From Clostridiales bacterium (lineage in GTDB: Bacteria; Bacillota; Clostridia; Saccharofermentanales; Saccharofermentanaceae): DNA of 64,000 bases. The notes beneath the pieces were generated by a model. That model worked only from the letters and a program-made list of their open reading frames with translations. It was not told the origin of the DNA and did no database searches. The translations under genes and the position numbers were made by a program. Positions 37,333 through 54,595 of this stretch are shown one piece after another. Each line of letters begins with the position of its first letter. The stretch's first letter is position 1. Location: assembly GCA_017552455.1 (NCBI GenBank), contig JAFZPX010000046.1, forward strand, positions 1 through 64,000. The letters run 5' to 3'.

Positions 37333-40202
37333 ATCAGCTGTCCAGATTCAGATTCGGTAATCTTCATAAGAGAAGGATCCTCGTAGTTATAAGCATGATC
37401 CTGCTGATGATATTTACATCAGTGCTTTTCCTGACTTTTATCGGATTCTTCGGCAGCCGTGCTGAACTTGTAAGAGTAAGGGCAACTGCTGAGCTGACGG
37501 CAGGAAGATCTGACGGTGTCGGTATCAATGTTCTTGAGATACCTGATACGAATATCATTGATGATCCGTTCTTCGGTAAGAACGATAACTGCATATCCGC
37601 CCAGGTATCAGAGACACAGGGATATTACATCTACTTCGATCCTGATGAAGCAGCTTCACTGTCAGGCGTCACAGCAGGTAACAGTGTAGATATCCTTTCT
37701 ATCGACGGTACCGGAAAGATGGGATTAAGGTATAGCGGCCAAGTAATGGGTTATACAGATACAGTGTTCGGCGTGCCTGTAGCGATCGAAGATCAGTCAG
37801 CTATGTGGCTTAATGATCCTGTCGTTAAGTGTATGGAGTCATCAGGATCTTTGTATCTTATTACTCAAAGCGGAAAGCTGATCAGTGATGCCGCAGTTTC
37901 TCCTTCTGTGATTGAATCTGAGGATCCTTTTGTTGATATGTGTGCAGAAGGTATCTCAGTATATGCACTTACACTTCACGGAAACATTTATATCTCTACT
38001 GATGCAGGTCAATTCACTCTCCTTGGAACATGCACACAGCAGGAGGGTAAAGAGTCGCAGTATATTACGGTTTCTAACGGTAATATCAATATTCTGTTTA
38101 CTGATGGCACAATCGCTGCATTTGCTCCTACTGGGCCTCAGACTGTGGGAGATATACAAACCGATAAAGCTGCATCAGGTGATGGCTTTATGATAGTCTG
38201 CTCCGGCAATGAGGTGTATGTCAGCCGTAATGGTCTGTTCATGGAGTTAGTTGACGGTGTCAGCGATTTTATGCGTGAAGGGGATCAGGTCGTTGATCTT
38301 GAAGCTAATGATAATGCTGCATTTATCCTCACATCATACGGTAAGCTCATTAAGGTTGATATGTCTTATGACGAACCTTTGGTAACGTCCAGAGATATCT
38401 CGTCGGTCGAGCCTGTAAGCATCTGCCCGTCAGGTAGTAATGCTGTTATTGTCGCAGCATCAGATAATCAGGCTTATTATGTATCACTGTCCAGCGGCAA
38501 TCCCAGATCTCTTGGTATGACTGGCGTTTCTGTAGATGACGTCTTCCAGTATGGTGAGGATTCATACATTGTCAGAAGCGGTAATATCCTTTATGAAGTA
38601 TCGCTGATGTCTGCAGTAGAAGTAGATCTTCCTATTGCTGACGATCTTGTCCTTGAAGGCGATATCTGCATGATAAAGAACTCCACTGCGGATACACATG
38701 CGTGGGATCTTTACGGCTCTACAGAGCTTGTTACTCAGACAAGCGGCGTGAGCCTGATCGGAACGGGCAACGGACAGCACGCGATGTCGAGACTGCTGGA
38801 AGAGCCTTCTTCTGCGCTTTTCGAGAAAAATCTGTTCTACAGGGTAGAGGTTACGCTGTCTTCGTCAACGCCGGACGCTTCCTGCTATGTATGGCTTGAG
38901 GGAGATACATTCGGCAACGAGGGCCTGCACATCACTGATATCGGTGATCAGCCAAGATCTTATTCATATGTATTTGTAGTTACTGAGAATATGCTTTCTG
39001 ATGAGTCGCTGAGATTTAATATCTCATTCGAAGGCGATGCTGTTGTTAACGTTCATAACGTCTATGTTGGTCTGGACAGATACGATATCAATTCTGTTCC
39101 TACAGAGTTTACTGATAACGTTATCGCATGTGCGCCTTCTGCCTTAAGATTCCCGTCGATAGTACCGGGAAGCGACGATTATTGTGAAGAGACATTCTAT
39201 GGTGTAAGCGCAGCCTCTTTGGAGCGAGCTATGATCCTCAGTAAGGATTCGGGTGCTAACCCTTGGCTTGTTATGGGACCTTATGTCACACAGAGCGATG
39301 TTGATGCGTTCTTAGGTTATGTCTGCGGTTCTGTCTCGGATGAATACGGTCGCCGCAGAATAGATAACGGAACTGCTTTGCCGTGGAGCAGACAGTTCGA
39401 GACTATCTATGTTGAGATCAATGACAGCGATAATGTTTTCCCCACTGATTCACAACGAGGTGCTTACGTTTCTTATGTCATAAGCCTCTTTGCCAAGTCT
39501 GAGTTCTATATTGCTATCAAGGATAGGATCGTCTTTATTGACGGCATGAACTATGAGGGAGGAGTAATGCTCTCTGATGCGGACCGTCATGCGACCGGTA
39601 TAGTGCTTGATGCGGTTGAGAATGAAGGCGTTGAGCTTTCCTTTGTAGACTCAGTATATGCATCGATAGATAATGCGATTTATCAAGCTCCGAGAATGGG
39701 TGGAAACGGCACAAACAGCGGTGAATATGTTTCCTCAGTAAGAATAGGTTCTTCCATTGTTGCGGGTAACTACAGTGCTGCCGATATAGTCTCGGCAATT
39801 ATCAGAGCTGAATCCATGTATTCGGATATCATCATGATTGATTCTGATATGTCTTCTTGCGGATTGATATCGACGCTGAGACCTTTGATCAATGGTGATC
39901 TTATGTACTGCGAGATAATGGAGCCGCTTGATCCGTCTTCGAGATTCTCTGCAGAGAGCTTTAATGAAGCTTGCGAGACCATTCTTATCGATAAGCCTGA
40001 TAGTATAGTTATGGTTGTAGCAAACCATTCGGATACTTTGCAGCAGTTCGTTGTATTAAGCGATGCTTATGATACTTCGGATGGTTTTTACCGAAGGTAT
40101 TCCTCGCAGGGTGCACTTCTAATGGAAAGGGACCTCAACAGACTTGGTCTCCGCCTCGTTCTTCAGGCAGGCGAGTACATGGTCATCGAGATCCCCAAAT
40201 AA
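37329..40202 (+). CDS. Large membrane-anchored protein: propeller-like half plus GH-like half
   Basis: A protein of 957 residues. A membrane segment at about 15-38 follows a basic start, so the rest is exported. Residues about 150-460 hold repeating short beta-rich units of the form x-G-x-L/I-Y-x-x-T...G (for example S-G-S-L-Y-L-I-T, H-G-N-I-Y-I-S-T, S-G-N-I-L-Y), suggesting a beta-propeller. After a beta-sandwich-like part, residues about 640-955 contain G-A-N-P-W-L-V-M-G-P, D-E-Y-G, an I-Y-V-E-I-N-D strand and A-G-E-Y-M-V-I-E at the end, recalling TIM-barrel glycosidases such as the GH51 group. The glycosidase match is weak. It starts 4 bp inside the CPBP gene, which suggests linked function. 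Confidence 0.6.
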   Translation: MNQLSRFRFGNLHKRRILVVISMILLMIFTSVLFLTFIGFFGSRAELVRVRATAELTAGRSDGVGINVLEIPDTNIIDDPFFGKNDNCISAQVSETQGYYIYFDPDEAASLSGVTAGNSVDILSIDGTGKMGLRYSGQVMGYTDTVFGVPVAIEDQSAMWLNDPVVKCMESSGSLYLITQSGKLISDAAVSPSVIESEDPFVDMCAEGISVYALTLHGNIYISTDAGQFTLLGTCTQQEGKESQYITVSNGNINILFTDGTIAAFAPTGPQTVGDIQTDKAASGDGFMIVCSGNEVYVSRNGLFMELVDGVSDFMREGDQVVDLEANDNAAFILTSYGKLIKVDMSYDEPLVTSRDISSVEPVSICPSGSNAVIVAASDNQAYYVSLSSGNPRSLGMTGVSVDDVFQYGEDSYIVRSGNILYEVSLMSAVEVDLPIADDLVLEGDICMIKNSTADTHAWDLYGSTELVTQTSGVSLIGTGNGQHAMSRLLEEPSSALFEKNLFYRVEVTLSSSTPDASCYVWLEGDTFGNEGLHITDIGDQPRSYSYVFVVTENMLSDESLRFNISFEGDAVVNVHNVYVGLDRYDINSVPTEFTDNVIACAPSALRFPSIVPGSDDYCEETFYGVSAASLERAMILSKDSGANPWLVMGPYVTQSDVDAFLGYVCGSVSDEYGRRRIDNGTALPWSRQFETIYVEINDSDNVFPTDSQRGAYVSYVISLFAKSEFYIAIKDRIVFIDGMNYEGGVMLSDADRHATGIVLDAVENEGVELSFVDSVYASIDNAIYQAPRMGGNGTNSGEYVSSVRIGSSIVAGNYSAADIVSAIIRAESMYSDIIMIDSDMSSCGLISTLRPLINGDLMYCEIMEPLDPSSRFSAESFNEACETILIDKPDSIVMVVANHSDTLQQFVVLSDAYDTSDGFYRRYSSQGALLMERDLNRLGLRLVLQAGEYMVIEIPK

Positions 40203-40415
40203 TCAGTTAATACCTGTAACTGTGTAATCGAGATCAGTAATTGTCTTAGTAAGCATCTCGTCGGTAACGTCGCCGTCGAGCTCTACTGTTGCTGTACCTG
40301 CTTCGTGAGAAGCTTTAGCTGTTACTACACCGGGTATATCCATAAGTGCGTTTCTTACAGCCTTCTCGCAGTGCTTGCACATCATGCCTTCGATGCTTAT
40401 TGTCTTTGTTGCCAT
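40203..40415 (-). CDS. copZ: Possible internally initiated CopZ-like copper chaperone
   Basis: Within copA and in the same frame, an ATG at 40415 has a perfect AGGAGG (40428-40423) seven bases upstream, with a second AGGAGA a little further. Translation from it would give a free 70-residue HMA protein with the copper motif G-M-M-C-K-H-C, the size of known CopZ chaperones. Sequence shows the signal; production of the short form is inference. Escherichia coli makes a similar free CopA N-terminal domain, by frameshifting. Confidence 0.45.
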
Positions 40416-42563
40416 AGTGGTTCCTCCTGTTATCTCCTGCGGTAATTCCGCCTGTGCGTTTCTTCTATCATACTTGTCTTTGCCCGGCTCGAAAAGGTTA
40501 ATCCTCAAAGCATTCATACATACGGTAAAGCTTGAGATGCTCATGGCCGCTGCACCCAGTACGGGGCTCATGTTGATGCCGAACCCTGAAAGGGCACCTG
40601 CAGCGATAGGGATGAGCAGGATGTTATAGATAAAGGCCCAGAATAGATTCTCGTGGATGTTCTTAACGGTCTTGTGAGAAAGTCTTATCGCAGCGGGTAC
40701 ATCCGTAAGGATGGATCTCACAAGCACAATATCTGCAGCATCTATTGCTACATCAGTACCTGCACCAATAGCAATTCCGATATCCGCACTCGTAAGAGCG
40801 GGAGCGTCGTTGATTCCGTCTCCGACCATCGCAACTTTGCCGTAGTTCTTAAGCTCATTGATTACTCTGTTCTTACCCTCGGGAAGAACGCCTGCAACTA
40901 CTCTGTCGACACCCGCTTTCTTGGCTATCGCATTTGCGGTACGCTCATTGTCTCCTGTCAGCATAACAGTCGTGATGCCCATGTTATGAATCTGTCTGAT
41001 GGCTTCCTGAGATTCTTCCTTGATCGTATCGGCTACCGCTATGATTCCTAAGAATCTGTCTTCCTGTGCGAAGAAGAGGGGAGTCTTGCCCTCGTTAGAA
41101 ATATTAACTGATTCTAAGATTGCCTCATCGGGTACTTTAATAACGCTAATTATATAGTCTTTGTTTCCGCCGAAGGTTTTCTTGCCGTTGACTGTACCGG
41201 TAAGACCCTTGCCGGGAACGGCCGTAAAATCCTTACATTCATATGTATCTTCAGAATAGGCGACAACAGCCTTTGCCAGAGGGTGCTCTGACTTGCTCTC
41301 GAGACTTGCAGCAAGCTTTAGCAATTCAGACTTTTCGAGGCCTGAAGCAGGGACGATGTCTGTTACTGAAGGTTCGCCGCACGTTATGGTTCCTGTCTTG
41401 TCGAGAGCCACGATCTGTATCTTCTCGGTCTGTTCAAGAGCAGTTGCAGTCTTGAAGAGGATGCTGTTCTTGGCTCCTACGCCGTTTCCTGCCATGATCG
41501 CAACGGGTGTGGCAAGTCCCAATGCGCATGGACAGCTTACAACGAGCACTGCGATACCGTGTGTAAGCGCAGTGGAGAAAGACTCTCCTATGATAAGCCA
41601 GATGATGGTAACCAAGAGGGCAACTCCTAATACTGCAGGAACGAATATACCTGATATCTTATCGGCAATTCTTGCTATAGGAGCTTTGCTCGAGGCACTG
41701 TCGCTTACCATCTTTATTATCTGTGATATGGTCGTATCTTCGCCGACCCTTGTGGCACGGCACTTGATAAAGCCTGTCTGATTGATTGTGGCAGCGGAGA
41801 CTTTGTCGCCTGTGAATTTATCTACAGGTATTGATTCGCCTGTAAGAGCTGATTCGTTTACTGTACTTGTGCCTTCTTCTATGATGCCGTCGACAGGGAT
41901 GCTCTCGCCGGGTCTGACCACGAAGATATCATTTACCTTAACATCTTCGATGCCTACCGTTGTCTCCTGACCGTCCTTGATGACAACGGCTGTCTTGGGA
42001 GCGAGATCCATCAGGCTCTTAAGAGCATTTGTGGTGCGACCCTTGGATATGGATTCCAGAAGTTTACCAACCGTAATAAGTGTGACGATCATTGCAGCTG
42101 AATCGTAGTAACCGTAAAGGAATGATACGGCAGAACCCATTGCAACGAGTGTATCCATATTAGGTGCTCGATGTATAGCTGATTTGAAACCGCTTATGAA
42201 GAACTTGTTGTTAATTATGAGAATGGCAAGAGCTAAGACCATCTGTATGATTGGTCTGTCCATTCCTGCGATCATTAGTATGATGAGAAGTATAACAGAT
42301 GCGATGAGACGCTTTATAAGAACAGGTTTCTCCTTGTTCTCGAGTGACTTGCTGTCCTCTTTGCCGGTACTGAGGCGCGCTCCATAACCGGCATTCTCTA
42401 CAGCGCTGATTATATCTTCATGAGATGCCGTGCCTTCAACTGTCATTGAGTTGGTAAGAAGGGAGACGGTGCAGGAATCTACTCCGGGAACGCTGTTCAC
42501 GGCCTTTTCGACATGTGCCTGACATGCGGCACAACTCATTCCTGTTACATCGTACTTCGCCAT
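40203..42563 (-). CDS. copA: Copper-exporting P1B-type ATPase with fused C-terminal CopZ-like domain
   Basis: A protein of 786 residues. In order: an HMA domain with G-M-S-C-A-A-C (8-14), eight membrane spans with the C-P-C ion site (S-C-P-C-A-L-G), the phosphorylation site D-K-T-G-T, the S-E-H-P-L nucleotide-domain motif and the [10 protein letters not shown] hinge. After the last span and a polar linker, residues 717-786 form a second HMA domain with G-M-M-C-K-H-C. CPC and HMA features indicate Cu(I) export. It starts one base after csoR, in an operon under CsoR control. The extra domain has its own internal ribosome binding site. Confidence 0.95.
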
Positions 42564-42564
42564 A

Positions 42565-42870
42565 TTACTTCATCATCTTCTGCAGAAGCTCTACGAGCTC
42601 GTCTATCTTCTCGTCGGAACCGTTCTTAACGTCATCCTTTACGCACGACTTTATGTGGCTTCCAAGCAGTACCTTCGAAAAGGAGTTGAGCGAGCATCTT
42701 GCAGCATTAACCTGGGTTAAGATGTCTACGCAGTAAGCGCCTTCATCGACCATCTTATGTATGCCTCTGATCTGACCTTCGATCCTGTTAAGACGGCTTA
42801 TAAGATCCTTGATCTCATCTTCGCTTCTGTCTTTGTGTTCGCAGTGAGGACATTTTTTACCGTTGCTCAT
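42565..42870 (-). CDS. csoR: CsoR family copper-sensing repressor
   Basis: A protein of 101 residues, all-helical. The copper-binding triad is intact: Y-C-V-D near residue 47, then H and C in G-S-H-I-K-S-C-V near 71-75. The N-terminus carries an extra C-P-H-C-E-H segment. CsoR binds its operator without copper and lets go when Cu(I) binds. GGAGG precedes the ATG. It leads the operon csoR-copA, and a matching operator lies in its leader. Confidence 0.95.
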
Positions 42871-42884
42871 ATACTGCCTCCGAT

Positions 42885-42901
42885 ATACCCCTAGGGGGTA
42901 T
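42885..42901 (-). promoter_or_regulatory. CsoR operator
   Basis: ATACCCC-TAG-GGGGTAT, a GC-rich pseudo-palindrome that fits the known CsoR operator pattern, lies between the -10 box and the csoR start, where a bound repressor would block early transcription. Confidence 0.8.
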
Positions 42902-42912
42902 GTTATATACGG

Positions 42913-42941
42913 ATATTAATCTTTGCCCAAAGAGATGTCAA
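42913..42941 (-). promoter_or_regulatory. Promoter of csoR-copA
   Basis: On the minus strand TTGACA (42941-42936), a 17-bp spacer and TAATAT (42918-42913). The CsoR operator begins 12 bp downstream of the -10 box. Confidence 0.8.
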
Positions 42942-42952
42942 TCAATTATAAT
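42923..42952 (+). promoter_or_regulatory. Possible promoter of the radical SAM gene
   Basis: TTGCCC (42923-42928), an 18-bp spacer and TATAAT (42947-42952). It overlaps the csoR promoter on the other strand. An ATG starts six bases after the -10 box. Confidence 0.5.
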
Positions 42953-42958
42953 TGTCAT

Positions 42959-43000
42959 ATGGACGGCAGAGCGGAGCATTCGATATTCAGGCTTATATGA
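42959..43000 (+). CDS. Putative leaderless 13-codon mini-ORF before the radical SAM gene
   Basis: ATG at 42959, six bases after a TATAAT box, opens 13 codons (MDGRAEHSIFRLI) whose TGA stop (42998-43000) overlaps the ATG (42997) of the radical SAM gene as ATGA. The radical SAM start itself has no ribosome binding site, so translation could depend on this mini-ORF. Confidence 0.35.
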   Translation: MDGRAEHSIFRLI

Positions 43001-44061
43001 CGCGCGGAGTGGAGCGTGTTGTTGCCGATGCGGTTCGTGCAACGCTTAAAAATCCCAAGGAAAGCATCTTTATGGCTAAGTTTGCCGCAGCGTCCCGCCG
43101 TGCATCCGCAAGACGCAGGGAGGCTGAGGAGAAAGGTGAACATATACCGGCTTTTCTTATCGCGAGCATTACTTCCCAGTGCAATCTTCACTGCGCCGGC
43201 TGCTATTCAAGGTGTAATAATGCGACCTCGGATGAGACTCCGGTTAATCTTCTGACCCAAGATGACTGGAATAAGATATTCGCTGAAGCAAATTATATCG
43301 GTATCAGCTTTATTCTTCTTGCAGGCGGTGAGCCTATGCTCAGACGTGATGTTATAGAAGCGGCAGGGAACATCCCTGATATCCTTTTTCCGGTCTTTAC
43401 CAACGGAACATTCATGAACGACCGGTACCTTGATCTTCTCGATGAACACAGGAATCTTATCCCGATTATCAGCCTGGAAGGAGACAGGGAAGTTACGGAC
43501 AGGCGAAGGGGAGACGGGGTCTACGATAAGCTTGTAACTGCTATGGACAGACTTAATGGCAGAGGAATTATCTTCGGGGCTTCGGTTACGGTTACTGCTG
43601 AGAATCTTAATGATGTTCTGTCGGATAGATTTGTAAGCGATCTGTCGGCGCGCGGCTGTAAAGCTGTTATATATGTGGAGTATGTTCCGGTCGAAGAAGA
43701 AAGCATTGATCTTGCACCCGGCGATAAAGAACGTGAGGTTATTGAAGGAAGGATATCGGATCTTCGCCGCGATTATCAGCAGATGCTGTTTATCTCGTTC
43801 CCGGGTGATGAGAAAAGCTCAGGCGGCTGCGTGGCTGCGGGCAGAGGTTTCTTCCATATAAATGCATACGGTGGCGCAGAACCTTGTCCTTTTTCTCCGT
43901 ATTCTGATATCTATGTGAAAGATACATCCCTTAAAGATGCAATCGATTCAGTTTTTTTCCGTAAACTACGTGCCGGCGGATATCTTTTGGATGAACATAT
44001 CGGCGGATGTACTCTTGCTGCGAAAAAAGACGAAGTACAGCGTTTGCTACAAGAAAAGTAA
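42997..44061 (+). CDS. Radical SAM protein with C-terminal cysteine-rich region
   Basis: A protein of 354 residues. The radical SAM cluster motif S-Q-C-N-L-H-C-A-G-C (CxxxCxxC) lies near residue 55, followed by F-I-L-L-A-G-G-E-P-M as the G-G-E motif that binds SAM. The C-terminal part has G-G-C-V-A-A-G-R-G, then E-P-C-P-F-S-P and I-G-G-C-T, suggesting a SPASM or Twitch-type second cluster. Such enzymes modify peptides or cofactors; no precursor peptide is recognised unless the adjoining 13-codon mini-ORF is one. The start at 42997 is preferred because an in-frame TTG at 42952 lies in the -10 box. Confidence 0.85.
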   Translation: MTRGVERVVADAVRATLKNPKESIFMAKFAAASRRASARRREAEEKGEHIPAFLIASITSQCNLHCAGCYSRCNNATSDETPVNLLTQDDWNKIFAEANYIGISFILLAGGEPMLRRDVIEAAGNIPDILFPVFTNGTFMNDRYLDLLDEHRNLIPIISLEGDREVTDRRRGDGVYDKLVTAMDRLNGRGIIFGASVTVTAENLNDVLSDRFVSDLSARGCKAVIYVEYVPVEEESIDLAPGDKEREVIEGRISDLRRDYQQMLFISFPGDEKSSGGCVAAGRGFFHINAYGGAEPCPFSPYSDIYVKDTSLKDAIDSVFFRKLRAGGYLLDEHIGGCTLAAKKDEVQRLLQEK

Positions 44062-44154
44062 AATCTTACTGACAATTAACAAATTGTTGATACAATTTTA
44101 CATCTATACGGGTAAACTCTTATCGATAACTTTTAAATTATAGGAGGAGTCCTA

Positions 44155-44742
44155 ATGCTTTTTGATGCGGTAATCAAGATCAGACGCTCATCTATTCTTG
44201 CCGCGATCTTACTGGCATGTCTGGGTGTGGTACTGCTCATGTGTCCCGAGCAGTACATCGAGACACTCGTAATGTTCGCAGGTTATGTCATGATCGTTTT
44301 TTCGTTGGAACAGAGCTTGGAGTTTCTTAACAGCAAGCGGTCGATAATGAGTTATATCTCGTTCACGCTGGCGCTGGTAGTGGGACTTGTGGGACTTGCG
44401 GTGCTCGTGTTTAACCAGGATGTCTTGTATACGCTTTGCTGGGCGTTCGGCGTGTTGCTTATAGTGGACGGCGGCAACACCTGTTACTACGCTCTGACCT
44501 TCGCCAAGAGGGCGAGCCGTCCGGGTTGGTCCATACTTGTAATCCTCTCGACGATCCTTATCATCTTCGGACTTTTGCTGATCGTCGGAATCATCTATTT
44601 CAATCATTCGGTACTGGCATCACCTTTGTTCCTCATGAAGATAATCGGAATCTCTGTTTTATTCTGTGCGATCGTAAGTGCGGTAAGGCTTCTGTGGATC
44701 CTGCCGGTTAAGGAAGGAGGCGAAGCTAATGAAGAAGCATGA
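44155..44742 (+). CDS. DUF308 family membrane protein
   Basis: A protein of 195 residues with six membrane segments and short loops, the DUF308/HdeD layout (paired spans, each with a G-x-x-L/M pattern). The HdeD relative in Escherichia coli belongs to acid resistance, but most members are uncharacterised. AGGAGGAG precedes the ATG. It overlaps the UbiB-like gene by 14 bp. From here to 47667 the genes use more G- and C-ending codons than the surroundings. Confidence 0.8.
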   Translation: MLFDAVIKIRRSSILAAILLACLGVVLLMCPEQYIETLVMFAGYVMIVFSLEQSLEFLNSKRSIMSYISFTLALVVGLVGLAVLVFNQDVLYTLCWAFGVLLIVDGGNTCYYALTFAKRASRPGWSILVILSTILIIFGLLLIVGIIYFNHSVLASPLFLMKIIGISVLFCAIVSAVRLLWILPVKEGGEANEEA

Positions 44743-46519
44743 GCAGCCTAAGAACAAACTGGAGCAGACAAAGGAGCTTATAGCCGGCAAAAGAGCTCAG
44801 AACCGCGAGAATGCGAGACTGCGCTACAACGCCACCAAGATGAAGATTGAAGACCGTAAGGCGCATCTGCAGGCGGCATCGCAGGAGATGAGCGATGACT
44901 TGAGAAGACTTCTGTCGAAGGAGCTCGAAGATAAGGAAAAGAACGAGAAGACCCGCGGGTCCGAGATGCTCAGTATTTTCGCCGCGCATAACTACTATGC
45001 AGACGGTCTTACTCCCGTAGAGCTTCGAACGACACTCGAGGACTTGGGTCCCACTTACGTTAAGATCGGACAGATCATGTCGAGCCGTGTCGACTTGCTG
45101 CCGGAGGAGTACTGCAAGGAACTCGAGAAGCTTCGTTCCAACGTAAAGCCGCTTGATGCCGAGGTCGTCCGCGCGATGATCGAGCAGGAGACAGGCAAGA
45201 AGATCGATGAGATCTACAGCGAGTTCTCGGATAAGCCTCTGGGTTCCGCTTCGATCGGACAGGTTCATTTCGGTGTGTTAAAGGACGGTACCAAGGTCGT
45301 AACCAAGGTACAGCGTCCGCTCATCGCAGACATGGTAGTAAAGGACTTTGAACTTCTTAAGAAGCTCGGAGGCGTCGCGAATGTCGTTACCGAGGGCAGC
45401 GGCTCCAAGACCTTGGATCTTGTCTCCGTTCTCGAGGAGCTTGAGAAGGTTACTTACGAAGAGCTCGACTTCCGCGTAGAGGCGGAGAGAACGAAGTTCT
45501 TCAAGGAGCACTGTGTCGAGGACGAGAATGTAATTGCGTGTCCTACGGTTATCGACGAGCTCACCACGTCGCGCATCTTCACGATGACTTTTGTAGACGG
45601 CGTTACGCTCGCAAAAAAGGATGTTCTCATCGAGAAGGGCTATGACCTCAATGCCATCGGTCAGGCTGTAGTAAGCAACTTCGTTCATCAGGTAATGGAT
45701 GTCGGATTCTTCCACGCAGACCCGCACCAGGGCAATATCATGGTAAGTGAGGGCATACCTTACTGGATCGACTTCGGCATGATCGGTCAGGTCACCGAGC
45801 AGGATATGAACTTCATCATCAGCATGATCACATCACTGCTTAAGGGTGACGCGGAGGAGCTCGTAAAGGGTGTTGAGTCCATCGGTGCGACCTCACCCGA
45901 CACGGATCACGATAAGATCCTGGAAGGTGCGGAGAAGCTTCTTAGTAAGTATTCCGACGTTACGAGTGTCAACGACCTCGATGTAATGGTCCTCTTTAAT
46001 GAGGTCACGGATCTTGCCAAGGAGAATAATGTCGAGCTTCCCGGGCGTTTCACGATGCTCGGCAGGTCGGTCATCACGATCGAGGGAGTTATCGAGGACA
46101 TCTGTCCCGAGCTTAATCTGCTTGAGCTTCTGACGGCGAAGATCTCCGACAGGATCAAGAAGAGCTTCGACCTTAAGAAGACTGCTATCGACTTCGGCAA
46201 GGGCGTGCTCGATGTAGGCAGTAAGACGGTAAAGATTCCGGCACAGATCTCGGATATGCTGGGTAACATTAACCGCGGCAAGCTCAAGGTCAACATGGAG
46301 GTTACGGGACTCGATGAGCCTCTCGACAGGATCGGTGAGTTCCTGCGCTATTCACTGCTTCTTATCGTGGCATGCGTGGTGTTCCTCGGAAGCTGCGTAC
46401 TGTGTCTTGCGAAGATCGAGCCCATGGCTGCGGGTAACGTGCCGATCCTGGCGCTCGCGGGAATCCTGTTCTCGATAGCACTCGGCATCTTCTCTGTAAA
46501 GAAGCTGTGGAAGAAGTGA
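44729..46519 (+). CDS. UbiB/ABC1 (AarF) family atypical kinase
   Basis: A protein of 596 residues. A charged N-terminal region (about 1-75) precedes the ADCK core: Y-V-K-I-G-Q-I-M-S-S-R (the K-x-G-Q motif), A-S-I-G-Q-V-H (the Ala-rich nucleotide loop), F-H-A-D-P-H-Q-G-N-I-M and I-D-F-G-M-I-G as catalytic and metal-binding motifs. Two C-terminal membrane segments (about 535-590) anchor it. The family supports ubiquinone synthesis in respiring bacteria. No quinone genes are seen here, so another lipid-related role is likely. AAGGAGG precedes the ATG; a LURP-like gene follows after one base. Confidence 0.9.
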   Translation: MKKHEQPKNKLEQTKELIAGKRAQNRENARLRYNATKMKIEDRKAHLQAASQEMSDDLRRLLSKELEDKEKNEKTRGSEMLSIFAAHNYYADGLTPVELRTTLEDLGPTYVKIGQIMSSRVDLLPEEYCKELEKLRSNVKPLDAEVVRAMIEQETGKKIDEIYSEFSDKPLGSASIGQVHFGVLKDGTKVVTKVQRPLIADMVVKDFELLKKLGGVANVVTEGSGSKTLDLVSVLEELEKVTYEELDFRVEAERTKFFKEHCVEDENVIACPTVIDELTTSRIFTMTFVDGVTLAKKDVLIEKGYDLNAIGQAVVSNFVHQVMDVGFFHADPHQGNIMVSEGIPYWIDFGMIGQVTEQDMNFIISMITSLLKGDAEELVKGVESIGATSPDTDHDKILEGAEKLLSKYSDVTSVNDLDVMVLFNEVTDLAKENNVELPGRFTMLGRSVITIEGVIEDICPELNLLELLTAKISDRIKKSFDLKKTAIDFGKGVLDVGSKTVKIPAQISDMLGNINRGKLKVNMEVTGLDEPLDRIGEFLRYSLLLIVACVVFLGSCVLCLAKIEPMAAGNVPILALAGILFSIALGIFSVKKLWKK

Positions 46520-46520
46520 T

Positions 46521-47126
46521 ATGAGCAGGAACTCTAAGATCGAGCGCTACCACGGTCAGGGCGAGGGCGTAAACGAGAAGAACATAGAGCGTTACGGCTA
46601 TCCCAAGTATTCGCTGTATTCGACTCGCAGGATCCTGTCGAGAAAGCAGCAGATCGAGGTCACGGACGAAGACGGCAACGTGCTTTACATGTCGGAATCC
46701 GAGCCTATGATCCTGCTCGACAAGACTCTGATCACGGACGCGGACGGCAACGAGGTGGCGCGCTTCGAGAGAAGACCCAACGTCATACGCGAGAAGCATG
46801 TCCTCACCATGAGTTCCGGCATGGAGCTCCTGCTCGAAAAGGAGCCGCTCCACATTATCAAAGAGATAACCAATATAAAGAAGCTCGACTGGCAGCTTAA
46901 AGGCAACGTGGGAAGGCTTAACTTCGAGATAGTGGATATATTCGGGCAGGTCGTCGCGGTCATCGGCCAGAAGAGGGTGTCAAAGGACGATAAGTACAGC
47001 ATCGACATCTATCAGGATGAGTGTGCGGATGTTGTGGCCTGCATACTTATCATCCTCATGCATATAGTGCGTGACCGTAACATCAAGGGCGCGGCCAAGG
47101 CTCTGAAGAAGGCGGGTCCCAAATAA
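46521..47126 (+). CDS. LURP-one-related (YxjI-like) protein
   Basis: A protein of 201 residues. The middle has the beta-rich LURP/Tubby-like pattern: Y-S-L-Y-S-T-R-R-I-L-S-R-K-Q-Q-I-E-V-T-D-E-D-G-N, then I-T-D-A-D-G-N-E-V-A-R and F-E-I-V-D-I-F-G-Q-V-V. Tubby and scramblase relatives bind phosphoinositides or membranes; bacterial members are uncharacterised. The C-terminus has a hydrophobic D-V-V-A-C-I-L-I-I-L-M-H helix. It follows the kinase-like gene by one base and is likely co-translated. Confidence 0.7.
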   Translation: MSRNSKIERYHGQGEGVNEKNIERYGYPKYSLYSTRRILSRKQQIEVTDEDGNVLYMSESEPMILLDKTLITDADGNEVARFERRPNVIREKHVLTMSSGMELLLEKEPLHIIKEITNIKKLDWQLKGNVGRLNFEIVDIFGQVVAVIGQKRVSKDDKYSIDIYQDECADVVACILIILMHIVRDRNIKGAAKALKKAGPK

Positions 47127-47229
47127 CAATTGTAAAAGAAACTTGTTAATAATTTGGTAATACGGAGTTCAATAGCAGGCAACAATCATTTGTTAAATTA
47201 TTTTTATACATTTACGGAGGTAAATCATT

Positions 47230-47667
47230 ATGGCAATTAAAGCACGCATGGAACAGGCCCAGGCCAGGATCAAGGAGACAAAGGCCAAGGTAAAGGATGC
47301 AGGTGAGACAGCAGCGATCGCTGCCATGCTTACCAAGGACGAGATCGACAAGAAGATCGCTGACTCCAAGGGCGAGCTCGTCGCAGCTCAGGAGAATGTA
47401 CGTATCGCTTCCGAACGCCGTAAGAGCAAGCTCAGCTCCGAGCTTATCAAGGCTCAGATGACGATCGCAGCTGCCAAGCAGGCTATCACCGACAAGAAGG
47501 AAGCTGTCGACAAGGAGAAGAGGATCGCACGTATCGACGATCTCATCAGCTACTCCGAGTGCTGTGAAGCCATGGCTGTACAGATTCTTCTCGAGGCAGA
47601 CCTCGCTATGCTTACTGCTGCTGCAGAAGCTGCCGAGTACATCGAGAAGTATGGTGACGACGCTTAA
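47230..47667 (+). CDS. Small Ala/Lys/Glu-rich coiled-coil protein, unknown
   Basis: A protein of 145 residues, nearly all predicted helix: alternating Ala, Lys, Glu and Ile with heptad-like spacing from about residue 5 to 100, and a C-terminal Ala-rich helix with adjacent cysteines (S-E-C-C-E). No signal peptide or membrane segment. It recalls PspA-like coiled coils in composition, but is shorter and no family is claimed. ACGGAGG lies upstream. It ends with a strong terminator that closes the group starting at 44155. Confidence 0.65.
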   Translation: MAIKARMEQAQARIKETKAKVKDAGETAAIAAMLTKDEIDKKIADSKGELVAAQENVRIASERRKSKLSSELIKAQMTIAAAKQAITDKKEAVDKEKRIARIDDLISYSECCEAMAVQILLEADLAMLTAAAEAAEYIEKYGDDA

Positions 47668-47699
47668 GTAATATCCTCTAAAGCTTTATTACAGTTCAT

Positions 47700-47732
47700 A
47701 ACGATCCCGGGCATTGTTTCGGGATCGTTTTT
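47700..47732 (+). terminator. Terminator closing the DUF308/UbiB-like/LURP-like group
   Basis: AACGATCCCG (47700-47709) pairs with CGGGATCGTT (47720-47729), a 10-nt loop between, followed by TTT. Confidence 0.85.
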
Positions 47733-47778
47733 GTATGTGTTATAGTGATATAAGATTGTTTTAAGGGAGAAGAAAGAA

Positions 47779-48570
47779 ATGGCAGAGTATCAGTATAATG
47801 AACAGAATCAGTCTCAAGGCAACAACGGTCTGTGTATCGCGGGTTTTGTTGTTTCCTTGGTTTCACTTCTGTGCTGCGGACTTACGAGCATCATCGGACT
47901 TATCCTGTCCATCATCGGTGTAGCTACATCCAAGGGCAGAAAGAAGGGGCTTGGTATCGCAGGTATCATAATCTCTTCGATAATGACAGTGTTACTTATT
48001 GGAGGAATGATCGTTAATTATTCAGATTTGATTAACCAAGACTATTCCGATATCGAGGAGCTTGAAGAATGGCTTGATTCTCTTGAGGAAGAATCCGGAA
48101 GCGGCTCCAGCAGAAGAAGCAGTAGTAATGATGAGATCTCAGACAGCGATATTACGAGTGTTGATTGGATCGATGAAGAAGACGGATCTTATCTCGTATT
48201 CCAGCGCGGTCATACTTTCAGATATTACATGACGGCTGACGACCTCGATGACAACTACTATGAAGGCTCTTATGAGCTGTATGTAGGCGATGAGGCTATC
48301 GAATTCATCTCAGAAGACCTTGAGGAGTTCGGTGTTACAGAAGATGAGATTGAAGATCTTATCGAGATGAACGACGAGTATACGGAAGAGAATGTAGTTC
48401 TTCTTTATCTGCACTACGATTGCCGTATGCAGAATGGTGTTGATACATTAAGTGGCTTGAGAGATGCTCCTTACTGTGGTTTTGCAATTACAGATGACGG
48501 AGAGCTTAATCTTGATCTCGTAAACATGAATAGTGCTAACTACTATTACTTCATTCCTTACGAGGACTGA
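47779..48570 (+). CDS. DUF4190 membrane protein with acidic exported domain
   Basis: A protein of 263 residues. A Gln/Asn-rich start leads into the two-span DUF4190 domain (about 17-78: I-A-G-F-V-V-S-L-V-S, G-L-I-L-S-I-I-G and G-L-G-I-A-G-I). A Ser/Glu-rich linker and an acidic, Tyr-rich domain follow. Role unknown; members are common in Gram-positive bacteria. AAGGGAG precedes the ATG. It converges with the acyltransferase gene, whose stop is 8 bp away. Confidence 0.75.
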   Translation: MAEYQYNEQNQSQGNNGLCIAGFVVSLVSLLCCGLTSIIGLILSIIGVATSKGRKKGLGIAGIIISSIMTVLLIGGMIVNYSDLINQDYSDIEELEEWLDSLEEESGSGSSRRSSSNDEISDSDITSVDWIDEEDGSYLVFQRGHTFRYYMTADDLDDNYYEGSYELYVGDEAIEFISEDLEEFGVTEDEIEDLIEMNDEYTEENVVLLYLHYDCRMQNGVDTLSGLRDAPYCGFAITDDGELNLDLVNMNSANYYYFIPYED

Positions 48571-48577
48571 TAGTAGC

Positions 48578-49741
48578 TTAAGTTACTTTACCGTCGAACA
48601 GGCCTGACTTTCTTTCAAGAACTAAGTTCTTAATAATATAGACTGCAGAGCTGATTATAATAGTGCTGACTATCACTGCCGGCAGATAAACTGAGATTCC
48701 GAATCTACTAGACAGGAAGAACAGTGTGCCGATCATCAGATAGTTCAGCATTATTATTTCGAGAGAAATCTTGCCGAGGAACTTGAGAACAGGGTTGCTG
48801 AACTTTAACTTGGACATGATAGTGACGATAAGGATCAGGAAGACAATCTCAAATACAGTTTCCTGACCAAGTCCCTTGAGCTTATCCAGAAGAGGATTAG
48901 GAACGTCGTCGTATTCTGTCCAGTAGATAGATAAATCCATCAGATGTCTGTGGATGATATCAAGTACAACAAACAGTACGGAAGAAACGATAAGGATAGG
49001 TAAGAAAGCCTTCTTTATTGCTTTATTTATGCTTTCTTCCTTGTATGCATAGAACATACCGAGAGGGAACATAAGGATAGTGTTATACCACCATTCGCCC
49101 TTGAACCAGTAGGACATGGTCTGTGAATCAGAGTGTCCGGCAAGTAGGCCGATGACCATCATTATGACAACAGCGCCTGTCATGATGAGAATACCGGTAA
49201 GCGGCTTCTTTACCTTGGCAAATACTATCCTGAATATGATGTACAGAAGCATAATCTCGACCGCGAACCACATCTGATTGTTTACGAGGAAAATGCCGAA
49301 GAAACTGCAAACAACAGCGCCGAATCCGAAGTGTGCTCCAATCCTGATATTGCTCAGGAGTGCCGCTGTCAGATAGATATAATTGCAGATAAAGAACGGT
49401 ACCAGTACAGTAAATATTCTTCTTCGCATAAAGCCTTTGATGTAGTTCTTATCTGTCATCCATCTCTTTATGAGTCCGAATCCGGAACAGAAGAAGAAGA
49501 AAGCTACCGCGAGTATTCCGTAATAGTAGAAGTTCATGAGCTCGCCTATATTAATACCTGCGAATCTGAGAATAACAACAGTCTGGTGAAGCATTATAAA
49601 CACTGCCAGGAAGCCCTGGAACTCTTTTGTTGATTCACGGTCGAAGAAAGATATCTCATTATGTGATCTTCGGGATGCTCCTATGAGCAGGAGTGCACCG
49701 AGAAAAGCTATGCAGATATAAAATGTTACCGTCAATTCCAC
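48578..49741 (-). CDS. Acyltransferase-3 family membrane protein
   Basis: A protein of 387 residues with about ten membrane segments and the acyltransferase-3 pattern: S-T-K-E-F-Q-G-F-L-A-V-F-I-M-L-H near the start, F-F-F-F-C-S-G-F-G-L, R-R-R-I-F-T-V-L-V-P-F-F and N-P-V-L-K-F-L-G-K-I-S-L-E later. The catalytic-type His in the first helix is kept. Such proteins acylate cell-surface polysaccharide or lipids. Start is GTG with AAAGGA about ten bases upstream. The first half of the protein at 50147-52351 is a clear paralogue (shared N-P-V-L-K-F-L-G and G-E-W-W-Y-N). Confidence 0.85.
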   Translation of the reverse strand: MELTVTFYICIAFLGALLLIGASRRSHNEISFFDRESTKEFQGFLAVFIMLHQTVVILRFAGINIGELMNFYYYGILAVAFFFFCSGFGLIKRWMTDKNYIKGFMRRRIFTVLVPFFICNYIYLTAALLSNIRIGAHFGFGAVVCSFFGIFLVNNQMWFAVEIMLLYIIFRIVFAKVKKPLTGILIMTGAVVIMMVIGLLAGHSDSQTMSYWFKGEWWYNTILMFPLGMFYAYKEESINKAIKKAFLPILIVSSVLFVVLDIIHRHLMDLSIYWTEYDDVPNPLLDKLKGLGQETVFEIVFLILIVTIMSKLKFSNPVLKFLGKISLEIIMLNYLMIGTLFFLSSRFGISVYLPAVIVSTIIISSAVYIIKNLVLERKSGLFDGKVT

Positions 49742-49757
49742 CTGTTGTTTTCCTTTC

Positions 49758-50147
49758 TTATCTTAATAAGCTGATAATGTTCAGCGTAAGCGATATCAGA
49801 AGCAGCGTTATCACCACAAGAATAATGATTATTAATTTGCTGATTTCTTTTCTGTGTTTAATCTCTTCGTCGCCAAGCTCTACTGAAGCATTAATTAGTT
49901 CCTGAGCTTCCTCGCGTGTCAGAGTATCATTCTTGTCTTGCCGTTCGCCCGCGAGAATCTCCATGATCGATATGTCAAGTAGCTCGGAGATTGGTTCAAG
50001 CATAGAGATATCGGGAAAACTGAGACCACGTTCCCATTTGGAAACCGCCTTGTCCGTAACGTTCAAGGCATCGGCAAGCTGTTTCTGGGTAAGCCCCTTC
50101 TCCTTGCGCAGTGTGGTGATCAGTTGTCCCGTTTTCTCTTTGTCCAT
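49758..50147 (-). CDS. XRE-type regulator with C-terminal membrane anchor
   Basis: A protein of 129 residues. Residues 6-60 are a helix-turn-helix of the XRE type: L-R-K-E-K-G-L-T-Q-K-Q-L-A, then D-K-A-V-S-K-W-E-R-G. The C-terminus is one membrane segment (about 103-126), so the DNA-binding part would be tied to the membrane. It starts on the last base of the double acyltransferase gene and ends 17 bp before the single one, between two related enzymes in one operon. Confidence 0.8.
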   Translation of the reverse strand: MDKEKTGQLITTLRKEKGLTQKQLADALNVTDKAVSKWERGLSFPDISMLEPISELLDISIMEILAGERQDKNDTLTREEAQELINASVELGDEEIKHRKEISKLIIIILVVITLLLISLTLNIISLLR

Positions 50148-52351
50148 TAAGTCGTAACGACCTCTGTTTTACCTCTATTAACTGTAATAATAACCGACTT
50201 GATTTTGAAATACAAAGAAGCGATTGCAGCGGTTAATGCGAAAGTTGTTAGAGCGCCGTAATTAGCAATGAAACCGACGTTCTCAGGGAACATGATAAAG
50301 AGCATATACATAACTGCAATATGCATGATGTATATAGGAAGAGAGTAGTCGCGGCCAAGATTCTCAGCATTGGTTCCAGCCATGAAGTTAGGATACTTAA
50401 GGCAAAGAAGAACGACTACTACAGTAAGGATCTCACAGCTTACGAAGGGAACAGCAACGCCCTGCTTGTAACCGTTAAGTTCGAAGATAGCTGTAGTAGC
50501 GCAGATCACAAGCAAAGCCCAAAGTGCCGGTGCGAGGAACTTGATGCTCAAGATCTTCTTTTCGTATCTTCTTATAAGCATGCCCGTCATAGTGTAGGAA
50601 AGGCCTACGAGAATAGCATTTCGAAGCTGATAGCCTTCGCCGATACCGAGGTGTGAAAGTACTACGTATGCAGCAATGAGGGCAGGACCTGCGAACATCA
50701 CTTTCTTAAGAATGCCCACCTTGTTAAGAACAATCATGATAACGAGTGCATACAGAAGGGAACCTAAGAACCACAGATGCTCCGTAAATGGGGAGAGGTT
50801 ATAAAGCAGGAAATCAATTAAAGCTTTGCGCGTGAAGCATGCTGTGATTCCGTTAAGGTTACCCTCTGTGATGCGCTCGTAAAGCGTGAAGAAAGCAAAA
50901 TAGAACAGATTGGATGTAACGTAGAGAAGAAGCATTCTCTTGGTCTGCTTTATAAGGCGTGTCATCATCTCCTTGCTGTCATCGCGGAACAGGAAGTAAC
51001 CGCAGACCATGAAGAAGAAGGGGACAGCGACCTTACTGTAAGTGATGAAGACCTGACCTGCTTTGCCTGCGAAGGGGAAGTGGATGGTGACAACGAGGAA
51101 CGCCATTATAATTCTCATGAAATCAATAGAGTGTATGCGGCTGAGCTTTTCGCCGGGGGTGGCGGAAGCTCTTTCCTTGCCGTTAATGAGAGCGATAATG
51201 TGCTTGTCGAAACCGTGAAGTACTGTGGCAAAACCGATGGAACCCAGGATAGTAAGAACTACATACATTCCTGCAGAAGGAATGTGCGCAAGGCTTCCGT
51301 GGAGGCCATGCAGGAACATTGCGTGGATAAGGTAAAGCTCAAGTGAGATAGAACCTAAGAACTTAAGAACGGGGTTGCCGAATCTTACCTTCATCATGAT
51401 AAGCAGAACGAGGCAGACGAATACGAAGATCCAGGGAAGCTGGAATCCCAAGCAGCGTACCTTATCAAGGTAGCCGTTGTACTCGCCCGGGATCTCACTC
51501 CAGTAAGAATACATCTCGAGCATGTATCCTGTCTGAATGCGAAGGACTGCAACAAGGGCAACGATAACGGGAATGAGCACCCAGTATGCTTTGCGTGCGA
51601 ACTTGCGTAGACCCTCGGCATGCTTAGAGAAGATGATGCCCACTACGAAAAGGAAAGAAGCGTTATACCACCACTCACCCATGAACCAGCGGGAGCAGGA
51701 GTAGTCCTCGCCGTGGTTAAGCAGGAGACTTCCGGTCATCATTCCTGCTACGGCGAGAGCCATTACGACAGTTGCTGCCGTACGGTTCTTGATGAGACGG
51801 TAGATAGCGAAGAAGAGAAGGTAGAGTATCGCGATCTCTATGATGTACCACATATGTGAGTTAAGAAGGTACCAGCCGGACATGAGGATAGCAACATCTA
51901 TGGGAGCAAGCTTCGCACCCTCTACGCAGATTGAAGCTACGAACAGGCTGTTACATGTGAAGAAGGGGACGAGAACCGTAACAAGACGCTTCTTAAGAAA
52001 TCCTTTAAGATAGTTTTCTTTGGTTTTGAGGCTGGTATAAAGACCGTAACCCGAGAAAAAGAAGAATATGCCGACGAAGAGAACTCCCAAGTCCTCGAAG
52101 TCGCCAAGGGCGCCGGCCTTCTCGGCAAGTTCCTGCGACAGGTGGTGAAGGATTATGCAGATGGCTGCAAATCCCTGTACTGCTTTTGAAGTCTCAAGGG
52201 AGAACGGATTGTCCTGCCATTCTTTTCTCTTGGAGATTTTTACTCCCACAAGAAGGAGCAGCAACAATAACGGAAAAATGATGATCAGCGGAAAGTCGAG
52301 TGCTATAAACGACTTGTAAAGGGACTGTAGCTGGGTAGGCAAAGTGTCCAT
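50147..52351 (-). CDS. Tandem acyltransferase-3 membrane protein
   Basis: A protein of 734 residues, about twice the family length, with two complete acyltransferase-3 units and some twenty membrane segments. The first unit (about 1-385) matches the neighbour at 48578 (S-L-E-T-S-K-A-V-Q-G-F-A-A-I-C-I-I-L-H-H, G-E-W-W-Y-N, N-P-V-L-K-F-L-G). The second (about 410-725) begins I-D-F-M-R-I-I-M-A-F-L-V-V-T-I-H and is more distant. Both keep the first-helix histidine. ATG at 52351 is set by AGGAGG upstream. A palindrome precedes it. Confidence 0.82.
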   Translation of the reverse strand: MDTLPTQLQSLYKSFIALDFPLIIIFPLLLLLLLVGVKISKRKEWQDNPFSLETSKAVQGFAAICIILHHLSQELAEKAGALGDFEDLGVLFVGIFFFFSGYGLYTSLKTKENYLKGFLKKRLVTVLVPFFTCNSLFVASICVEGAKLAPIDVAILMSGWYLLNSHMWYIIEIAILYLLFFAIYRLIKNRTAATVVMALAVAGMMTGSLLLNHGEDYSCSRWFMGEWWYNASFLFVVGIIFSKHAEGLRKFARKAYWVLIPVIVALVAVLRIQTGYMLEMYSYWSEIPGEYNGYLDKVRCLGFQLPWIFVFVCLVLLIMMKVRFGNPVLKFLGSISLELYLIHAMFLHGLHGSLAHIPSAGMYVVLTILGSIGFATVLHGFDKHIIALINGKERASATPGEKLSRIHSIDFMRIIMAFLVVTIHFPFAGKAGQVFITYSKVAVPFFFMVCGYFLFRDDSKEMMTRLIKQTKRMLLLYVTSNLFYFAFFTLYERITEGNLNGITACFTRKALIDFLLYNLSPFTEHLWFLGSLLYALVIMIVLNKVGILKKVMFAGPALIAAYVVLSHLGIGEGYQLRNAILVGLSYTMTGMLIRRYEKKILSIKFLAPALWALLVICATTAIFELNGYKQGVAVPFVSCEILTVVVVLLCLKYPNFMAGTNAENLGRDYSLPIYIMHIAVMYMLFIMFPENVGFIANYGALTTFALTAAIASLYFKIKSVIITVNRGKTEVVTT

Positions 52352-52366
52352 GGTAAGCCTCCTGAT

Positions 52367-52384
52367 GGTTTGATGATTCAAACC
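52367..52384 (-). promoter_or_regulatory. Palindrome before the acyltransferase operon, possible operator
   Basis: GGTTTGA (52367-52373), TGAT, TCAAACC (52378-52384): a perfect 7-bp inverted repeat starting three bases beyond the ribosome binding site of the 52351 start. Candidate binding site for the XRE regulator of the same operon, or an RNA hairpin. Confidence 0.45.
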
Positions 52385-52656
52385 TATCAATCAGGGGACA
52401 GGCATACAACCGACTGTCGGTAGAATCCCGCGGATATAGCAAAAACAGGCATTCTACCTTTGGTTTACCTGGTGTATGCAAATAAGGATTACAATTGCTA
52501 TCGTGAATAAACGTGTTCAATAATATAAGAGAACATATGAATATGACTTCACGGACAGACTTTATCTGATACTGATCGTACTATGTGTAATATGTCTTAT
52601 AATGGAATTAGACTGACTCTGTTGGTACCGTTGGTTACGATTTTGAGGAGGGTTGT
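52385..52656 (+). other. Divergent intergenic region
   Basis: No gene is seen. A TATAAT box at 52598-52603 may serve the plus-strand acetyltransferase at 52657, but no good -35 box accompanies it. On the minus strand a TTGCAT / TAGAAT pair with a 19-bp spacer is a weak candidate for the acyltransferase operon. Confidence 0.35.
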
Positions 52657-53208
52657 ATGATTCGTCTTGAGACGGACAGGCTGGTTTTAAGGGATTATTG
52701 TGCGGATGATTTTGATGAATACTTCAGACTGATGTCTGATGAGAAGACCATGTACTATCTTCCGGAACTGAAGCAGACTGACATAGGTGCTGCTAAAGAA
52801 AACTTCGCTGAAGTGTTGAAGGACATAGAACGCGAGACACGGGAGTTCTGCTTTCTCTGCATGGAATCAAAGGGAACTCATGAGATTATAGGGAATGTCG
52901 GATATAACGTTACAGGACGCGCGCCGGAAGGAAAGACGGTGCACCTGGGTTATTTTTCTTATCCGAAGTTCTGGGGCAACGGATATATGCCCGAAGCGGT
53001 AAAGAGAGTTCTGGAATTCGCATTTACGGAGGATAATGTGTATAAAGTAACGACAGGCTGTCTTACCGAGAATGTCGGATCTGAACGCGTTATGCAGAAG
53101 AACGGAATGGTTAAGTATGCCGAATTAAAAGATCATGAATTGCATGACGGCAAGCTGAAGACCAGAGTAGAATACCGTTTGTTAAAGGATGAATGGAATA
53201 CAGTATGA
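52657..53208 (+). CDS. RimJ/RimL-type GNAT acetyltransferase
   Basis: A protein of 183 residues. It opens L-E-T-D-R-L-V-L-R-D-Y, the RimJ/RimL start, and has G-Y-F-S-Y-P-K-F-W-G-N-G-Y-M as the acetyl-CoA segment and K-V-T-T-G-C...N-V-G-S-E-R-V-M-Q-K-N-G-M at the end. Substrates of such enzymes include protein N-termini and antibiotics; none can be inferred. GAGGAGGG precedes the ATG. It overlaps the next GNAT gene by 4 bp. Confidence 0.88.
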   Translation: MIRLETDRLVLRDYCADDFDEYFRLMSDEKTMYYLPELKQTDIGAAKENFAEVLKDIERETREFCFLCMESKGTHEIIGNVGYNVTGRAPEGKTVHLGYFSYPKFWGNGYMPEAVKRVLEFAFTEDNVYKVTTGCLTENVGSERVMQKNGMVKYAELKDHELHDGKLKTRVEYRLLKDEWNTV

Positions 53209-53627
53209 CCACATATGAAGACAAGATTACTGCAGAAGAGTTTCTGGGATTAAGAGCTCATGTAGGCTGGGTAGAGCTGCCGCTTGAGGAGGCGCGCGTA
53301 TGCGTCGAAAAGGTGTACTTCATCGTATGCGCACGAGACGGCGAGAAAGCTATCGGTGTGGCGCGACTGATGTGGGACGGCGGCTACATGGCGTTCCTAT
53401 CGGATGTCATCGTTGATGAGAATTACAGGGGGCTCGGCATAGGGCGTCAACTCGTTGAGTCTTGTATCGAGAAACTGCAGTCGGATCTTAAGCCCGGCTT
53501 CAAGGTTAAGATGACGTTGAATTCAGCCCCGGGCAAAGAGCCTTTCTATGAGAAGTTCGGATTCGAGGTGCGTCCTAACGATCACGCCGGCTGCTCTCTT
53601 GATAAGTGGATAACGGCTGAGGAATAA
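53205..53627 (+). CDS. GNAT family N-acetyltransferase
   Basis: A protein of 140 residues with L-S-D-V-I-V-D-E-N-Y-R-G-L-G-I-G-R as motif A (loop R-G-L-G-I-G) and F-Y-E-K-F-G-F near the end, like the protein at 3017. The start at 53205 forms an ATGA overlap with the preceding stop; an ATG at 53193 is in frame with AAAGGA upstream and is the alternative. Confidence 0.85.
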   Translation: MTTYEDKITAEEFLGLRAHVGWVELPLEEARVCVEKVYFIVCARDGEKAIGVARLMWDGGYMAFLSDVIVDENYRGLGIGRQLVESCIEKLQSDLKPGFKVKMTLNSAPGKEPFYEKFGFEVRPNDHAGCSLDKWITAEE

Positions 53628-53645
53628 TTTGAGAAAGAGGTCTGT

Positions 53646-54545: not shown

Positions 54546-54595
54546 TATATTGATGTTGCGCAGAAACGCTAGAATTGAATCAAAGGGATAATGGG

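Follow-up and report, generated by a model that had tools for sequence, protein, structure and literature searches.

Gene organization of the locus

We describe a block of four genes in a 64,000-nucleotide stretch of DNA from a Clostridiales bacterium (assembly GCA_017552455.1, contig JAFZPX010000046.1, positions 1 to 64,000), hereafter called the window. The four open reading frames (ORFs) encode a DUF308 protein, a UbiB/ABC1 atypical kinase, a LURP-one-related (LOR) protein and a coiled-coil protein (Table 1). All four exist where a preliminary description of the sequence had placed them, and all are read from the forward strand; that description took them together for a membrane lipid or envelope stress system. 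The first three genes overlap or abut, as had been claimed: the DUF308 and UbiB ORFs share 14 nt, and one base separates the UbiB stop from the LOR gene. The coiled-coil gene is set apart by a 103-base gap, and the strong terminator reported behind it is indeed present. The candidate promoter ahead of the block is weak by itself, since four promoter-like sites were found and shuffled sequences gave a mean of 3.9.

Table 1. Features of the four-gene block, in window positions
Feature	Position	Strand	Description
Promoter-like site, possible block promoter	44069..44096	+	CTGACA-16-TACAAT, TG before the second hexamer; consensus scan 10/12
DUF308 protein	44155..44742	+	195 aa; PF03729, 40.1 bits; conserved partner of UbiB
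UbiB/ABC1 atypical kinase	44729..46519	+	596 aa; charged N-terminal extension, kinase-like core, two C-terminal spans
LOR (Tubby-like fold) protein	46521..47126	+	201 aa; accessory
Coiled-coil protein	47230..47667	+	145 aa; accessory; relatives adjoin DUF308-UbiB in 5/63 other loci
Intrinsic terminator closing the block	47700..47729	+	12-pair stem, 6-base loop, T-rich tail

DUF308 and UbiB form a conserved two-gene core

The conserved core of the block is the DUF308-UbiB pair, and the LOR and coiled-coil genes lie outside it. Scanning one-per-species genomes with the window's UbiB returned 63 loci with best segments 35-84% identical to it, a set biased to its relatives because the scan patterns were derived from that same protein. 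Many of these loci bear ruminant-gut names in their records. A DUF308 gene lies directly upstream of UbiB in 56 of the 58 other loci with upstream sequence (56 of 63 overall). Five of the seven loci that lack it (L119, L158, L159, L162 and L168) start inside UbiB at a contig end; as for the remaining two, L167 is only 35% identical and is not part of the DUF308 clade, and L170 consists of a UbiB fragment only. Mechanically set starts give an overlap of the two ORFs in 33 of 57 loci, window included. Distances among the DUF308 proteins follow those among the UbiB proteins with an r of 0.92 over 51 loci, while the best of 500 label permutations reached 0.18. The preliminary description's proposal of a general four-gene system is not borne out in the relatives, where a LOR gene adjoins UbiB in 0/63 loci and a coiled-coil gene in 5/63. 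A second, very divergent UbiB gene lies on the opposite strand upstream of the pair in one locus (L111, 1689-3479).

The DUF308 protein exceeds the PF03729 cut-off of 25 bits, and its predicted structure (pLDDT, predicted local distance difference test, 82.6) consists of six long helices, in agreement with the six-span membrane protein first proposed.

UbiB is a member of the ABC1 family (PF03109, 203.4 bits; cut-off 22.9) that falls short of the quinone-type equivalog TIGR01982, with 328.3 bits against a cut-off of 487.55. A simple hydropathy count finds two hydrophobic spans at its C-terminal end, so that its earlier naming as an anchored UbiB/ABC1 kinase stands. The catalytic Lys is present, as are the KxGQ, A-rich loop, HxDxHxxN and DFG motifs. 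K112, G114, Q115, A174, S175, K193, E251, D331, N336 and D348 are invariant in all 55 rows of DUF308-linked UbiBs, and S173 is present in 53. The window's genome holds a second ABC1-like match (C41, 23.9 bits), and no UbiB relatives were found in viral contigs. The region ahead of the core differs in length, from about 15 to 260 residues (L138 and L128 are examples); L138 has acidic repeats there, and other proteins have charged stretches.

Most carriers have no UbiA-family match, and most other Clostridia loci examined pair UbiB with a phasin-like gene

Gene content argues against a quinone role for the DUF308-linked UbiBs. UbiA-family prenyltransferases serve the known quinone routes. Carrier genomes were searched for UbiA, LOR, coiled-coil and phasin-like genes at 50 of 53 chosen loci (L148, L154 and L166 were left out). 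The UbiA family (PF01040) has no match in 41 of the 50 carriers, assemblies of unstated completeness, whereas the controls matched in 14/14 genomes; eight carriers exceed the cut-off and nine show some match. Within the window, from which quinone genes had been reported missing, Pfam searches covered seven genes, and quinone genes were not sought across the rest.

UbiB has a different partner in most of the other Clostridia loci that we examined. A UbiB match occurs in 70 of 391 sampled Clostridia genomes. The better-scoring matches of this and one further scan make up a set of 54 comparison loci, with about 6 kb on each side if the contig was long enough. A small phasin-like gene lies directly upstream of UbiB in 43 of these 54, and the two examples tested against PF05597 were both over its cut-off. 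None of the 54 loci has a DUF308, LOR, coiled-coil family or cardiolipin-synthase-like gene by profile, and phmmer found no homologue of DUF308, LOR or the coiled-coil protein near the distant UbiBs. Conversely, no phasin-like ORF was detected at E 1e-3 in the window or in the 63 loci, which therefore do not belong with the phasin-UbiB pairs. The phasin-like profile found nothing in 22/22 Clostridia without a UbiB match and nothing in 46/50 carrier genomes. One of the four carriers that did match is weak, and the other three (G466, G469 and G477) each hold a second UbiB beside the phasin-like gene; G477 also has a phasin-like gene without UbiB in the 12 kb fetched.

The DUF308-linked and phasin-linked UbiBs each occupy one side of a branch of the UbiB tree (SH-aLRT, Shimodaira-Hasegawa-like approximate likelihood ratio test, 100), and the DUF308 set lies next to phasin-linked rows, on a tree made by a quick method with some long branches and 14 rows in neither group. 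Because the DUF308 clade adjoins phasin-linked rows, and a phasin-like partner is found in 43 of the 54 other loci, it looks as though DUF308 replaced the phasin-like partner a single time. Each of these gene families is already known; among the open-access papers searched, none named UbiB together with DUF308, and none dealt in a relevant way with UbiB or AarF and phasin (AarF papers being judged by title and the start of the abstract).

Accessory genes of the block

The third protein has a LURP-like, Tubby-related fold, as was first noticed from its sequence. Its score against PF04525 (24.2 bits) is just below the cut-off of 24.5, while a profile match to At5g01750 (1zxu) reaches 4.6e-8. The first two hits of a Foldseek search are TULP1 (3c5n, 5.3e-4) and At5g01750 (7.6e-4), with TM-scores of 0.50-0.55 by query length. 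Twelve strands followed by a long helix, as in the Tubby-like barrel, make up the predicted model, whose mean pLDDT is only 74.3. The window's genome encodes a second LOR protein (L091, 42.8 bits) that is 44% identical to the one in the block, and 17 of the 50 carrier genomes have a LOR gene somewhere.

The LOR gene probably has a longer history behind UbiB than the window's own lineage. L108, the nearest UbiB locus (84% identical), has an ORF that begins immediately behind the UbiB stop codon, at the place where the window has LOR. The start of this ORF resembles the first residues of the window's LOR protein; 0/20000 shuffles and 0/608 sampled ATG starts did as well. A terminator-like stretch follows it by eye. 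This ORF in L108 is probably a remnant, and LOR would have followed UbiB in the common ancestor.

Pfam searches with the coiled-coil protein gave nothing convincing. Relatives at L113, L115, L116, L120 and L165 share 35.8-43.9% identity over local alignments and fall into two other groups of the UbiB tree, L120/L165 and L113/L115/L116. The gene is divergent in L113, L115, L116 and L120, upstream on the same strand in L165, and downstream in the window; in L115 it is split into two ORFs. A weaker match, in L188 (about 7700-8830), marks a decayed locus from which UbiB is gone: a shortened coiled-coil gene there faces a DUF308 start, which continues into the last part of a cardiolipin-synthase-like gene (the latter by eye).

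Codon use and probable gain of the block

All four genes are GC-rich in their codon use, as originally claimed. G+C content at third codon positions (GC3) is 0.61 for DUF308, 0.69 for UbiB, 0.75 for LOR and 0.64 for the coiled-coil gene, against a median of 0.47 for the 47 window ORFs of at least 150 aa, from which DUF308 and UbiB were removed and in which LOR was kept as the highest value. Codon adaptation was calculated against rpsL, rpsG and fusA of the same genome, which is incomplete and in which ribosomal protein L2 was not found; it is 0.34 for DUF308, 0.46 for UbiB, 0.36 for LOR and 0.59 for the coiled-coil gene (median of 53 window ORFs, 0.43). High expression is thus not supported as the source of the GC-rich codons in the first three genes, whose codon use does not seem suited to this genome; the coiled-coil gene does not fit this pattern. 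The Ala, Thr, Pro and Arg codons favored by these three genes differ from those of the reference genes, while their Lys, Ile and Gln codons agree. UbiB GC3 is higher than the local median at 44 of the 51 other loci as well, with a median excess of 0.05. GC-rich codons are thus partly a trait of the family, which counts against a purely foreign origin.

The four genes are present or absent as one block between the window and its sister genome. Over a 272-residue stretch of elongation factor G (EF-G), the closest of 30 genomes are G030 (99%), G440 (98%) and G012 (97%). In G030, which is 99% complete, the radical SAM gene adjoins the counterpart of the gene at 47779, with none of the four block genes in between. 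In L217, the G030 locus with this empty site, positions 9101 and 9164 align with window positions 44016 and 47737. As for a recombinase-bearing mobile element, only the four genes lie between the ends of the block, and the aligned ends display no target duplication by eye, no repeat search having been made. The genome of L108, G440, carries DUF308-UbiB in a different context; its similarity to window positions 36000-56000 is confined to 44129-46525. UbiB had no match among same-genus genomes, several of them incomplete, in one set of 34 or among the 10 listed from another (four shared). A gain of the block in the window's line is the simpler reading, and probably the right one, compared with loss elsewhere.

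A proposed lipid-handling role for the DUF308-UbiB pair

The genes around the pair include candidates for phospholipid metabolism. Cardiolipin-synthase-like genes, so named for their PLDc domains, occur near DUF308-UbiB in 6/63 loci and in 0/54 comparison loci; the six include sister loci, and the genome-wide background was not measured. The gene lies directly downstream on the same strand in L120, L132 and L137, is divergent in L165, and is within the flanks in L133 and L169. PLDc is the most frequent family downstream of the pair (3 of 75 genes), and a CmpB-type membrane family leads upstream (6 of 69); these tallies leave out 16 of 91 downstream and 12 of 81 upstream ORFs, namely those judged spurious, five coiled-coil genes and set-aside loci (e.g., L159, L162, L167 and L170).

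Envelope stress is the business of the sigma-W regulon, and we take YxjI to be a LOR protein. In Bacillus subtilis, yxjI is listed as a core sigma-W gene (PMC3498285). In yeast, a synthetic growth defect, weak but reproducible, links the UbiB protein Cqd1 to the cardiolipin synthase CRD1; cells that have lost Cqd1 contain less phosphatidic acid, while their other phospholipids stay the same (PMC10214851). The ATPase of Coq8 may be coupled to the extraction of lipid precursors from the membrane (PMC8346625). Taken together, the cardiolipin-synthase-like neighbors, the Cqd1-CRD1 genetics and the place of yxjI in the sigma-W regulon lead us to favor a phospholipid-handling module with a possible use in envelope stress. 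The lipid and envelope theme of the preliminary description therefore survives, and its stress component would follow from the families involved.

Our best explanation, to which we give a probability of about 0.42, is that the block is a recently gained lipid-handling cassette in which DUF308 and UbiB act as a two-protein membrane machine on a non-quinone lipid. DUF308 and UbiB would probably be translated together and may form a physical complex, with the UbiB ATPase anchored by its two C-terminal helices. Because most carriers have no UbiA-family gene, we propose another membrane lipid as the substrate: UbiB may spend ATP on loosening, extracting or redistributing an anionic phospholipid, such as cardiolipin or its precursors, and DUF308 could be the membrane-side seat or gate that fixes where and on what UbiB acts. 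The Tubby-fold LOR protein may be an accessory that binds anionic lipid or attaches itself to the membrane, the coiled-coil protein could be a soluble scaffold, and both might help the pair to protect the membrane from acid, short-chain-acid or antimicrobial stress.

Several observations weigh against this explanation. Most loci have neither the LOR nor the coiled-coil gene, and most genes that neighbor the pair are unrelated. The coiled-coil profile matched nine of 50 carrier genomes, and its five strongest matches are the five loci adjacent to the pair, an adjacency that is largely by construction because the profile was built with four of them and the fifth is closely related. No solved relative of DUF308 was found by sequence, and the best hit of its fold search, TMEM45A, had an E of 0.039 and was not used, so there is no convincing fold match. 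The nearest carrier, G440, has a UbiA-family match of 38.3 bits (cut-off 34.2), and the window's own genome, 69% complete, was outside the UbiA search. The 6/63 count carries the limits given above, and in yeast cardiolipin itself is unchanged on Cqd1 loss (PMC10214851).

The first alternative, which we consider unlikely, is that only DUF308-UbiB works as a unit and that LOR and the coiled-coil gene are passengers caught in the same transferred piece. This would account for the missing LOR neighbors in all 63 other loci, even though 17 of 50 carriers possess the gene, for the rarity of the coiled-coil gene beside the pair (5/63), and for its 103-base gap and codon adaptation of 0.59 (0.34-0.46 in the others). 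It is opposed by the LOR-like start in the same place after UbiB in L108, which neither shuffles (0/20000) nor sampled ATG starts (0/608) reproduced, and by the recurrence of coiled-coil relatives beside the pair in two other groups of the UbiB tree.

We regard it as improbable that UbiB still acts on an isoprenoid lipid, such as the undecaprenyl carrier, another polyprenyl or a scavenged quinone, with DUF308 helping to reach it. Walled bacteria use undecaprenyl phosphate, the best NCBIfam match of the protein is the UbiB model (under its cut-off), its solved relatives include COQ8 proteins, and nine of 50 carriers, the nearest (G440) among them, have a UbiA-family match. On the other side, 41 of the 50 carriers have none, and none of the 25 most frequent neighbor families listed for either side, downstream (of 87) or upstream (of 59), is an isoprenoid family.

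Least probable of the three is a signaling pair in which DUF308 senses the state of the membrane and the atypical kinase phosphorylates a protein target: the kinase-like motifs are intact, and the DUF308 family includes HdeD, but the KxGQ motif is invariant here and the COQ8 fold is reported to give ATPase activity and to exclude protein substrates (PMC8346625).

Comparison with known systems

The window's UbiB shares kinase-like core motifs and C-terminal hydrophobic spans with the UbiB/COQ8/ABC1 family (PF03109), and differs in its DUF308 partner, its variable N-terminal extension, its score below the UbiB equivalog cut-off and the lack of UbiA in most carriers. The clostridial phasin-like + UbiB pairs (PF05597 + PF03109) resemble it in having UbiB directly downstream of the partner and in occupying neighboring clades of the tree; here the partner is instead a six-span DUF308 protein, which occurs in 0/54 comparison loci. 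LOR proteins of plants and YxjI of B. subtilis have the same LOR/Tubby-like fold, whereas here LOR belongs to a UbiB operon, which none of the 63 other loci shows in intact form. HdeD of Escherichia coli, which we take to belong to the DUF308 family, is likewise an inner-membrane protein, and we know of no UbiB partner for it. HdeD differs in lying in the acid fitness island and being described as a repressor of flagellum biosynthesis (PMC9769608). Yeast Cqd1 and Cqd2 are also UbiB-type proteins tied to lipid placement, with a CQD1-CRD1 genetic interaction; they are mitochondrial, and their reported effects are on coenzyme Q distribution and phosphatidic acid (PMC10214851).

UbiB thus has two tightly linked partners, DUF308 in one clade and a phasin-like protein in most of the other Clostridia loci examined. 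One doubtful but broader proposal is that UbiB in Clostridia is the engine of a quinone-independent lipid mover, and that a swappable partner sets its membrane or lipid target. This partner would be phasin-like in most lineages and DUF308, acquired once, in a largely ruminant-gut clade, with cardiolipin synthase, Tubby-fold and coiled-coil proteins added in some. If true, it would give quinone-independent UbiB and DUF308 a shared molecular job. The linkage to UbiB already provides functional context for DUF308, a family named only for its unknown function, and the sister genome G030 offers a natural empty site.

Neighboring genes

A functional link between the radical SAM gene and the block was considered and rejected. 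The same gene stands in the same place in G030 without the block, and we treat it as a neighbor.

Window positions 48573-55926 are also missing from G030, where hardly anything separates a 263-aa gene from tRNA-Val (window 55933-56009). By eye, the missing stretch contains two acyltransferase-like ORFs and one helix-turn-helix-like ORF, and the surroundings of the tRNA-Val look like a variable spot. Upstream of the block, positions 40203-42870 hold a P-type ATPase that resembles a copper exporter on inspection by eye, next to a metal-sensitive repressor (PF02583), an ordinary arrangement.

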